A program made the position numbers and the translations under genes. From Methanobacteriota archaeon (lineage in GTDB: Archaea; Thermoplasmatota; Poseidoniia; Poseidoniales; Thalassarchaeaceae): DNA of 52,833 bases. This document shows, one piece after another, positions 30,419 to 34,780 of the stretch (its first letter is position 1; every line of letters starts with the position of its first letter). The stretch covers positions 1-52,833 of the forward strand of contig BPDA01000007.1 in NCBI GenBank assembly GCA_019654055.1. Reading direction: 5' to 3'. The notes under the pieces were generated by a model, which worked only from the letters and a program-made list of their open reading frames with translations, did not search any database and was not told the DNA's origin.

Positions 30419-31624
30419 ATGTGGGCCTCCATACGTCGGATGCTGAGGGTTATCATGGGTGACGAGGAGCCAATCTTCACAATCACCGAGGCCAATCTAG
30501 ACTCGGGTCTCAGGGGTGTTCCCGTGGGCACCTGCAGAACATCCTTCGTAGACCCCATAGAGGGCGTCCACTACGTGGGATACCCAGTCGGAGATCTGGC
30601 GAACCTCGAGGAGGAGGACGTGATTTACCTGCTGCTACACAAGCGACTACCCGACCCCGAGGAGTCCGAGGCCTTCAGGGCTGAGCTCGCCCATAGGGCC
30701 GAGGAGATTCCCACTGGGGCCCTGAGAGTTCTCGAGTCGCTAACTCCCGGGAGTGGCCACCCGATGGACTGGCTGGCCATCGGTATCATGGCTCTGGGTG
30801 CTGCCGACTCGACAGGGGATGCACGCGCTGACTCGATGAACCTCATCGCTAGGATGCCCGAGTTGATGGCCAGACTCTTCCTTCTGCGTGGGGGCAAGTC
30901 CGAGGACCTGAGGCCACGCAAGCCTGAGCTCGGATTGGTTGAGAACTTCGTCCACATGCTCGGAATCGAGGGAGAAGAGGCAGAGCGCATGGAGCGCGTG
31001 CTCCGCTTCTTCTTCATTCTGCACATGGATCATGGAGGGGGAAACCTCTCCACCTTCTCCGGCAAGGCGGTCGCCTCCGGCCGCGCCTCAATCTACGCAT
31101 CCATAGCCAGCGCGATGAACGCGCTTTCCGGCCCCCTGCATGGCCGCGCCAACCAGGCCTGCCTCGAGTTCGTCCAGAGAATCGGTACGTCTGACCCCGA
31201 TGAGATTGAGGCCTTCGTACGCTCCGAGCTAGCGGCCCGTCGACCGATATACGGCTTCGGCCACGGCGTTCTCCGTGCCGAGGACCCACGCGCCAGTTTA
31301 CTCATCGGGCTCGGCGAGGAGATCTGCCCGGACGACGAGAACTTCCGGACCGTGACAGCACTCCGCGAGGTCGTCCCACCAATCCTCAAGGAGATACCGA
31401 AAATCAGCAACCCGTACCCAAACGTGGATTTGGCTAGCGGTAGTCTGCTGAACTCCGTCGGATTCCGCAAGCCCGACTACTACACGACCTTCTTCGGATG
31501 GGCACGTGTCGCAGGGATTTGCGCTCAGATACTGGACGAGCGCAGCGCGCGTGACGGCAGGGGAACGCCAATCTACCGGCCCAAGTACATCCCACTCGAC
31601 CAGCCACACCAGCGACTCGGCTGA
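30419..31624 (+). CDS. gltA: Citrate synthase
   Basis: ALRVLESLTPGSGHPMDWLAIGIMALG, LHMDHGGGNLSTFSGKAVASGRASIYASIASAMNALSGPLHGRANQ, GFGHGVLRAEDPRA. Confidence 0.92.
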   Translation: MWASIRRMLRVIMGDEEPIFTITEANLDSGLRGVPVGTCRTSFVDPIEGVHYVGYPVGDLANLEEEDVIYLLLHKRLPDPEESEAFRAELAHRAEEIPTGALRVLESLTPGSGHPMDWLAIGIMALGAADSTGDARADSMNLIARMPELMARLFLLRGGKSEDLRPRKPELGLVENFVHMLGIEGEEAERMERVLRFFFILHMDHGGGNLSTFSGKAVASGRASIYASIASAMNALSGPLHGRANQACLEFVQRIGTSDPDEIEAFVRSELAARRPIYGFGHGVLRAEDPRASLLIGLGEEICPDDENFRTVTALREVVPPILKEIPKISNPYPNVDLASGSLLNSVGFRKPDYYTTFFGWARVAGICAQILDERSARDGRGTPIYRPKYIPLDQPHQRLG

Positions 31625-32743
31625 TTAACCGGCACCATAGGTTCTGCCCGCTCCTCTGTGCCCTATAATCCTCGAGACTTCCCATGGCATGCTGGACTCG
31701 GAGGCCTCGGACATCAGGGAGTCCAGACTTCTCTCCCAGATCCACCTCTTCCTCCAGGACTCGATGAAGACCCTCCTCTCAGTGCCCGAGAGCTCGGACC
31801 AGGGTGCAACCTCTCTCTGCAGCCTGCGAATCGCATCCGCATGTCCATCTTCGGGAGTGGCATCCAACTGCGCCCTCACCTCGTCATCGAGAGGTTGGGT
31901 GGCTGGCCTCAGCCACCGCGGCTCGCCGGTTGGAAGCGTATGTACCTCCGGTGAGAGCTCGTCGGATATCGCCGTCAGCCCAGCATCCAGAATGGCCCGC
32001 TCCACTCGGATGTGGGCCGGCCAGACGTACACGGGGAAACCCTTCCTCTTCCGAGTCAGATTGGTAAGATGGCGCCCGTGCAACCCGACTGTCGTGCCGA
32101 TTGTGAAGTGACGCTTGCTACCATCTAGGTAGTCCAGAGCAGCGGGCAGCATCGGGGCGCCTGCCTTCCGTTGCATCGACATCAATCTGGGCAGCGACAG
32201 TCCGATGAAGTAGGGTGAGGCGAACACTCTCTTGACGAAACTGCTCCCCCATGGTCTGAGGTAGGGCACTAGTCTGGCGAATCGAAGTTCGCTGTCTGTT
32301 CTGGCTGCGGCTTTGAGTAATCTAGGCTCGAACGAGTATACCACCGACCCCGAGGGACTGATTCCTAGAGACCCTACCGACTCGTCGACCATCTCAATCA
32401 TCCTTCTCAGGTGGTCGATCTTCGCCTCTGCCGAGAACATCCCGCCCACCTTCCCACTGCTTGGATGAGGCATCTTGAGCTCGATGCAGGCGAACTTCCC
32501 CTCGCTCACCCATGGTTCGACGAATCCCGATTCCGCTAGCAGGTCATCGAGAGTGCATACGTAATCCGGCATTGTTGAGGCCTCCACGCACTCTGTGTAG
32601 CGACCATCGGCAGTTATCGAGTCGTGATACACGACTAGTTCCTCATCGGCAGAGAGTCGCAAGTCGAACTCCACGCCGTCCGAGAACCGCATGCCATGCA
32701 ATAACGCATCAAGCGAGTTCTCCGGCGGTTGCTCCCAAGCCAT
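31625..32743 (-). CDS. Glycerophosphodiester phosphodiesterase-family protein, apparently circularly permuted
   Basis: N-terminus PPENSLDALLHGMRFSDGVEFDLRLSADEELVVYHD, then ACIELKMP and YVWPAHIRVERAILDAGLTAISDELSPE; the HRGA motif is at the C-terminus (SRIIGHRGAGRTYGAG*). An in-frame TAG directly precedes the ATG. Confidence 0.82.
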   Translation of the reverse strand: MAWEQPPENSLDALLHGMRFSDGVEFDLRLSADEELVVYHDSITADGRYTECVEASTMPDYVCTLDDLLAESGFVEPWVSEGKFACIELKMPHPSSGKVGGMFSAEAKIDHLRRMIEMVDESVGSLGISPSGSVVYSFEPRLLKAAARTDSELRFARLVPYLRPWGSSFVKRVFASPYFIGLSLPRLMSMQRKAGAPMLPAALDYLDGSKRHFTIGTTVGLHGRHLTNLTRKRKGFPVYVWPAHIRVERAILDAGLTAISDELSPEVHTLPTGEPRWLRPATQPLDDEVRAQLDATPEDGHADAIRRLQREVAPWSELSGTERRVFIESWRKRWIWERSLDSLMSEASESSMPWEVSRIIGHRGAGRTYGAG

Positions 32744-32849
32744 CTAGCGGCACGAGGAGGTATCAAGTCCAATAATGCACGGACGACAGCGATTATCCAC
32801 TTCCCCAATGCTCAAACCCTCAGACCTCTAGCGACGCCTAGGTATTACC

Positions 32850-34780
32850 ATGTCAGACACAGTAGAACTAGACCGCGCATCAGACCCTCAAGCAGTACGA
32901 GGATACGCATTCTACGACTGGGCCAAGTCCTCTTTCGAGACCAGCGTCACTACTGCGGTGCTGCCGGGGTGGTTCGCTTACATTTTCCTGAAGGCGAATG
33001 GGTTGGAGGCAAGCGTACTCGGCATGGACATGACCAGCGACGCGATATGGTCCTTCTCTGTTACTATCGCTGCCCTTTTTGTTGCCATCCTTGCTCCCTC
33101 CCTAGGGGTCATCGCCGATCGACGCGCAATCAAGATATGGTGGCTAAGGATTCTGACTTACTTAGGAGCCGGGTCAACATTCCTGCTCGCCTTCGCTCCT
33201 ATGCTTGGGATTTCCCACCAGTGGGTTTGGCTGATTGTAATGTTCCTGATGGCAAACGTCGGCCTTAACGGCGCGGGAGTGTTCTACAATGCCCTCCTCC
33301 CCCATTTGGGGACCGATGACGAGATGGACGCCATCTCGAACAAGGCATATGCCTACGGATACCTTGGCGGCGGACTTCTTCTAGCAGTCCACCTTGCAAT
33401 GTGGATGACACTCACTGGAGATTGGATTATCCCATTCATCATGGCCTCGTCCGGCGTCTGGTGGCTGGGATTCGCTTGCTTGACCTTCGCTTGGGTCCCC
33501 GAGCCTCCAATCGAGAACGAGATGGAAACACTCGGGGTTGCCGACTCCGCGAAGTTTGCCTTCAGTGAGCTGAAGACTACCCTTGGGCAAATCACTCGCT
33601 TCCGCACGCTTTTCATCTACATGCTTGCCTACTTCTTCTTCATTGACGGCATTAACACCGTTACTGCACTGGCTGGAATCTACGGAGTCACAGTACTCGG
33701 CCTGACCATTGGGAATTTGATTGCCATCATCCTAGTAATCCAGTTCGTGGCCGCGCCCTGTGCAATCGGCTTCACCAAACTCGCGGAGAGAACCTCCACA
33801 CACCAAGCACTCTCCTTCTCTTGGTTATGTGGATCATTGTCATCTTTGGTGCGTTATCCTTCGCCCCGCTGGTTCTCGAGTCGCATGACGAGTATGATAT
33901 CCAGTTCGATTGGGATATGGACGGAGATGGAATCGCCGATTTTGAAGACGATGACACTGATGGTGATTGGTACTCCAACGTGGCCGAGGAAGAGGAGGGA
34001 ACCGATCCGCTGGACGCTTCTAGCACCCCCAACCCGAATCCATCGACATGGTTGCAGCAACGTCTGGATGGAAAGGGCCAATATGTCGTATCCGTCGGCG
34101 TCAGCACCTACGATAACGGCCTGTCTCAGAGCGATGAGGAGCAGGCTTGGGGAGTGGAATGGTCAGATGTCCTCCCCCTACACACTTTGGATAACGAAGC
34201 AGGAGACACGATATACGAGTTTGACGACCCCTCTGGCCCAGCCACCTCGGTTTTGAATGTCAGCAGGATATCTGATTTCAGCTCTACCTTCGATGAGAAC
34301 AGCCGCCTTAGCATGAGTATCCGGGGTGGAGATTTGGATGGCTCCACCGCACTGGGCGACGATCACCCTACGAGTCTGGGAGATGGCCCTCTGGATTTCG
34401 TATCTGACGCTGCTCGTGACAATCTGTGGGGTCCCCTCGGATTCGGAGTCTTCCTCCAGTTCCTTCTACTCGGTTGCATGGCAGGGGCTCTACTTGGTGG
34501 TTCACAGGGACTGGCGCGCAGCATCTTCGGTCAGATGGTACCTGAGACTCGCAGCGCCGAGTTCTTCGGCTTCTTCGGCTTCTTCGGCAGAGTGGCGGCA
34601 ATTCTTGGACCGCTCCTGTATGGCACTCTCACAGTGATGTACGACAGCAGAGTTGGGATAGCCAGCATCTGCGTCCTAATCGTCATCGGAGCTGCGATGA
34701 TGAAGTGGGTTGATGTCGATGACGGACGGAGAGCGGCCATGGAAGAGGATGCTCGTAATCGCGGCATCAGTCTCGATTAG
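32850..34780 (+). CDS. UMF1/Atg22-like MFS transporter with TSP3-like extracytoplasmic insert, one frameshift near 33805
   Basis: YAFYDWAKSSFETSVTTAVLPGWFAYIF and AEFFGFFGFFGRVAAILGPLLYG; insert DWDMDGDGIADFEDDDTDGDWYSNVAEEEEGTDPLDASS. Frames join at AERTSTHQAL|LLLVMWIIVIFGALSF. Confidence 0.82.

Follow-up and report, generated by a model that had tools for sequence, protein, structure and literature searches.

The window, by which we mean the whole stretch of 52,833 nucleotides that was analysed, carries on its minus strand an open reading frame for a protein of the GDPD family (Table 1). This protein scores 29.2 bits against PF03009, above the curated cut-off of 23.6, with the match covering only residues 7-44, equivalent to profile positions 9-47. 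Since the match begins at profile position 9, the HRG strand (positions 1-8) is absent from the N-terminus. The N-terminus reads MAWEQPPENSLDAL, starting at the EN motif (MAWEQPPENS), and MAWEQPPENSLDALLHGMRFSDGVEFDLRLSADEELVVYHD opens the chain straight after an in-frame TAG. The catalytic HR motif was found instead in the C-terminus, SRIIGHRGAGRTYGAG, which runs to the stop codon.

The GDPD site is known to consist of two catalytic histidines, a Glu/Asp/Glu metal site and an arginine and a lysine that contact the phosphate, and the canonical order of the motifs is HR-EN-EXD-HD (PMC4926365). The full set of motif residues (HR, EN, EXD, HD and ExK) is present in the window protein and nearly all of them are invariant in an alignment of 37 orthologs (33-85% identity to the window protein), with H362, R363, N9, E25, D27, H40, E88, K90, W241 and D261 unchanged in every sequence. 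The order observed is however EN-EXD-HD-...-HR, and HR comes last in all 37 orthologs instead of first as in the canonical linear order. As the HR-last order is circularly equivalent to the canonical one, the protein was filed as a permuted member of the GDPD family rather than an ordinary one. The linker comes after the last barrel strand, where in sequence it joins the old N- and C-termini. Both new termini lie in the stretch from HRG to EN, with the chain ending 5-15 residues past HRG and beginning 4-12 residues ahead of EN.

The first-pass annotation of this locus had placed the HRG strand at the extreme C-terminus of a protein that keeps all its catalytic residues, with a TAG directly before the ATG and no HRG just upstream. 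The same layout was recovered here, as GHRGxG is located within 5-15 residues of the terminus in 37 of 37 orthologs, the catalytic residues are invariant and the TAG is found in the window sequence. No HRG occurs in the open frames extending upstream of the start, and no GDPD-like HRG was found in three frames up to 400 nt upstream at 52 loci, where the only HRG-like triplets lie at least 44 codons away in contexts unlike those of GDPDs. The linker of about 80 residues described earlier is also present, although its length is not fixed and the spacing between D261 and H362 ranges from 60 to 103 residues across the aligned orthologs.

Table 1. Features of the GDPD-family gene in the window. Counts refer to the 37 aligned orthologs.
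Feature	Position	Strand	Evidence
Circularly permuted GDPD gene, 372 aa	31625..32743	minus	ORF; PF03009 E 1.2e-6; orthologs in 124/127 Poseidoniales genomes
E8-N9, EN motif at N-terminus (canonically just after HRG strand)	32717..32722	minus	N9 37/37, E8 35/37
E25-x-D27, metal-binding EXD motif (beta-2)	32663..32671	minus	37/37; Glu44/Asp46 of pfGDPD (PMC4926365)
H40-D41, second catalytic His (HD motif)	32621..32626	minus	H40 37/37, D41 34/37; His59 of pfGDPD
E88-x-K90, metal/phosphate ligands	32474..32482	minus	37/37; Glu111/Lys113 of pfGDPD
W241, late barrel strand (VWP vs canonical WTVN)	32021..32023	minus	37/37; aligned to canonical W (profile comparison)
D261, last barrel strand (ITD-type motif)	31961..31963	minus	37/37; aligned to canonical TD (profile comparison)
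Linker, residues 267-350, predicted helical, from barrel end to HRG strand	31694..31945	minus	variable spacing; helices in model
C-terminal RIIGHRGAG, strand and catalytic HR (N-terminal in canonical GDPDs)	31646..31672	minus	conservation; rotation tests

Conservation, neighbourhood and distribution of the gene

All 37 aligned orthologs match PF03009 (E<=0.01) and all of them carry an invariant GHRGxG at the C-terminus, even at identities as low as 33%, which is a conservation far beyond chance. Within this segment R358, G361, H362, R363, G364 and G366 show no substitution in the alignment. Orthologs with an N-terminal HRG were looked for among these sequences and none was found. The tail (residues 351-372) gave dN/dS values of 0-0.06 against near relatives, where computable; these values are similar to or below those of the barrel, while the values of the linker are higher in most pairs. 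The tail is thus under strong purifying selection, and the linker is the least constrained region of the protein in most comparisons.

The gene lies tail-to-tail with a citrate synthase gene in both Poseidoniales families, an arrangement which marks the permuted genes as orthologs, and the tail is also conserved at L043 and L054, two loci at which citrate synthase is either far from the gene or was not seen in its vicinity. A single ortholog (L058 4076-5077, genome G018) was seen to end before the HRG strand; no HRG was found in any frame between its early stop and citrate synthase, and its early end is either a loss or an assembly error. Another ortholog (G309:C5:199641-200741) contains a single in-frame TGA and could be a pseudogene or a sequence error. 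At three loci from the genus of the window (L045, L046 and L047), the citrate synthase and transporter flanks are 87-97% identical to those of the window (30419-34780), yet their GDPD alleles are only 38-41% identical to that of the window and group with other genera on the tree, an apparent in-place replacement of the allele by recombination. On the other side of the gene, an ATG22/MFS-type transporter is broken in the window into a pair of overlapping ORFs that lie in different frames (32850-34780), with a TSP3-like acidic repeat (33821-34100) between the two halves. The same transporter is one ORF of 643 aa in the close relative L031, and the split is a frameshift, whether real or due to assembly.

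A match was given by 93 of 98 relatives. Sampling was then widened to 394 Thermoplasmatota genomes, 127 of which come from the two families of the order to which the window belongs, Poseidoniales (Marine Group II). The permuted family was found in 124 of these 127, with members in each of the two families and at E<=1e-67. Outside the two families, the same sample gave only short matches to ordinary GDPDs (best E 5e-10), none of which goes beyond the profile's first third. The distribution beyond Thermoplasmatota was covered by scanning genome contigs once with a single sequence, together with viral, phage and plasmid collections; the named matches among the contigs are Marine Group II, Candidatus Thalassarchaeum and Poseidoniales MAGs, and the name given to the order rests on these. 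Within the collections searched the permuted family is seen only in Poseidoniales, and its distribution may extend more widely beyond Thermoplasmatota. No relative was found in the viral contigs, phages or plasmids searched, and a mobile or viral origin was therefore rejected.

The sister family of the same class (f3) has only ordinary GDPDs of about 230-250 aa, for example at locus L106, where the protein starts with RFMSPRIISHRG followed by PEN. In G000, in the single-contig genome G060 and in most of the other genomes, the permuted GDPD is the sole PF03009 protein found, which is consistent with a predicted housekeeping role in glycerophosphodiester turnover. Some Poseidoniales genomes (L081, L092, L093 and L114) contain a second, short GDPD-like paralog of about 190 aa that starts with GHRLGxSGT..ENT in the ordinary order and apparently lacks the last part of the barrel.

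Rotation tests and predicted structure

With the tail moved to the front, four out of four proteins gained 3.8-5.5 bits against PF03009 and their match started at position 1 instead of position 7-11, whereas a reversed-tail control gained 0.3. When each of the 37 proteins was rotated at every residue and scored with an HMM built from archaeal GDPDs in ordinary order, the rotated form scored above the native one in 36 of them (mean best gain 3.5 bits). Favourable rotations are mostly those that start anywhere in the linker as far as some 6 residues ahead of HRG, and a few proteins in which the joined loop is long gain almost nothing.

A similar pattern was observed at the profile level, where the alignment of permuted GDPDs (A1) was rotated and compared with a profile of ordinary archaeal GDPDs using hhalign. 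The score is 137 in the native order and about 158 for the tested starts from the barrel end to just before RxIGHRG, and it returns to 137 once the cut passes RxIGHRG, which indicates that the gain stems from this segment alone. The alignment with ordinary GDPDs spans the whole barrel. Relatives in ordinary order exist in the sister family and in the phylum, and they align in full only after rotation. A tree built from the rotated sequences separates the permuted proteins, as a single group, from the ordinary ones (100/100). The rotation scans with fixed rows replaced a PDB search with one profile in native and one in de-permuted order, which is an unfair comparison because of the differing row numbers (37 vs 16) and in which de-permutation does not raise the score for every chain. 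The circular permutation proposed in the first-pass annotation is supported by the orthologs and by all three rotation tests, which agree with one another.

The fold search returned 25 PDB matches at E<=0.001, nearly all of them GDPD-type structures. Two AlphaFold models built from 15 input sequences have mean pLDDT values of 68 and 62, with the confidence of the tail falling below 50 from residue 363 in the first model and from residue 362 in the second. The first model contains a short strand at residues 359-360, in a tail of confidence below 50, and its top Foldseek matches are GDPD-type (TM 0.3-0.6). Given this weakness at the tail the models were not used as proof, and as they are too uncertain for the tail strand we infer its place between beta-8 and beta-2.

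Proposed architecture and alternative readings

We consider a natural circular permutation of the GDPD TIM-barrel, with the tail strand rebuilding the active site, to be the best explanation (probability of about 0.88). The low confidence of both models at the tail and the G018 ortholog that ends before the HRG strand count against it. Strand beta-1, formerly N-terminal and carrying the catalytic HR, would now be the C-terminus, the new N-terminus would begin within the beta-1/alpha-1 loop, a short way before the EN motif, and the old ends would be bridged by the linker after beta-8. Most likely the tail strand inserts into its own chain between beta-8 and beta-2 and closes the barrel, an arrangement that would bring the two chain termini to the mouth of the active site and rebuild the site from H362/R363, E25, D27, H40, E88 and K90. 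On the simplest reading of the sequences, the beta-1 place would be filled by the tail strand and the enzyme would act as an ordinary metal-dependent phosphodiesterase. It would hydrolyse glycerophosphodiesters inside the cytoplasm, using a divalent metal and, as acid and base, two histidines. A cytoplasmic role is likely, as the chain starts at the EN motif and leaves no room for a signal peptide.

The permutation could also be adaptive. With the two ends of the chain at the mouth of the active site, the catalytic HR strand could have become a detachable C-terminal element that subunits exchange or that moves aside as a switch, in which case the main GDPD of this group might be turned on and off or be obligately oligomeric; we regard this as unlikely. 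It is improbable, too, that the strand enters the barrel of a neighbouring subunit to give a composite active site and an obligate oligomer. The long and variable linker speaks for such a swap, and insertion in cis and in trans are indistinguishable from sequence data, but alpha-8 of an ordinary TIM barrel already ends beside the start of beta-1 and closure in cis needs no swap.

A degenerate or repurposed GDPD, in which the C-terminal HRG would serve for binding and the barrel would have no catalytic function, might account for the highly diverged mid-barrel and for single-sequence searches scoring well only for the first part of the barrel. The invariance of the catalytic, metal and phosphate residues in all 37 orthologs, the profile alignment across the whole barrel and the strong purifying selection all speak against it, and we hold it to be quite improbable. 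An artefact has a negligible chance of explaining the data despite a fragmented, 73%-complete window assembly with a frameshifted transporter next to the gene, since the architecture recurs in every aligned ortholog including that of a single-contig genome (G060, locus L050). A mis-called start or frameshift is ruled out by the in-frame stops, among them the TAG before the ATG, and by the three-frame scan upstream, and the local misassembly that had been raised as a possible objection is ruled out by more than 120 independent genomes that carry the gene, with synteny conserved where examined.

For the natural circular permutation, an origin by tandem duplication would involve fusion of the two copies and loss of the start of the first and the end of the second, with the linker made from the duplication junction. 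The consensus before the C-terminal HRG is (M)PWExxRxIGHRGxGK, with Met preceding PWE in 17 of 37 sequences, and this stretch resembles the N-terminus of an ordinary GDPD such as UgpQ (WPYPRIVAHRGGGK), which fits such an origin. We infer that the permutation is older than the split of the two Poseidoniales families.

At the sequence level the permuted GDPD is real, conserved and well supported, and it represents a known family in a novel arrangement. In the open-access papers that were searched, we found no description of a circularly permuted GDPD. GDPDs are widespread and are recognised through the N-terminal HR...EN motif, which is here split over both ends of the chain and fixed across an order of abundant marine archaea. 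Standard annotation sees the permuted GDPD as a partial match, and motif-order rules and profile coverage filters can take such enzymes for fragments. With one clade and an unpermuted sister family, it offers a clean case for work on the emergence and persistence of circular permutations.

Comparison with known systems

The window protein shares the EN, EXD, HD, ExK, W and D motifs and the full set of catalytic and metal residues with PF03009 GDPDs such as those of Thermococcus kodakarensis (4OEC), Pyrococcus furiosus (7E0V) and T. tengcongensis (2PZ0), and it has TIM-barrel matches in common with them. It differs from them in its HR strand, which is C-terminal instead of N-terminal, in the added linker and in a very diverged mid-barrel. 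The ordinary GDPDs of f3 and other Thermoplasmatota have a related PF03009 barrel and occur in many genomes, with an N-terminal HRG, a length of about 230-250 aa and no linker. UgpQ-type GDPDs (2OTD, PRK09454) are alike around HRG (WPYPRIVAHRGGGK in UgpQ vs WEVSRIIGHRGAGR) and score 34 bits before and 41 bits after de-permutation, with row sets that differ between the two values; they have the ordinary order, and the window protein scores 22 bits against a cut-off of 264 bits for the NCBIfam of the UgpQ family.

Transaldolase and class I aldolase are related by circular permutation and are likewise TIM barrels with a circularly shifted strand order. Their barrels have been discussed as a case of non-sequential alignment (PMC2213659). 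They belong to another superfamily with other chemistry, and there whole families differ, whereas in the permuted GDPD the break lies inside the defining motif of the family.
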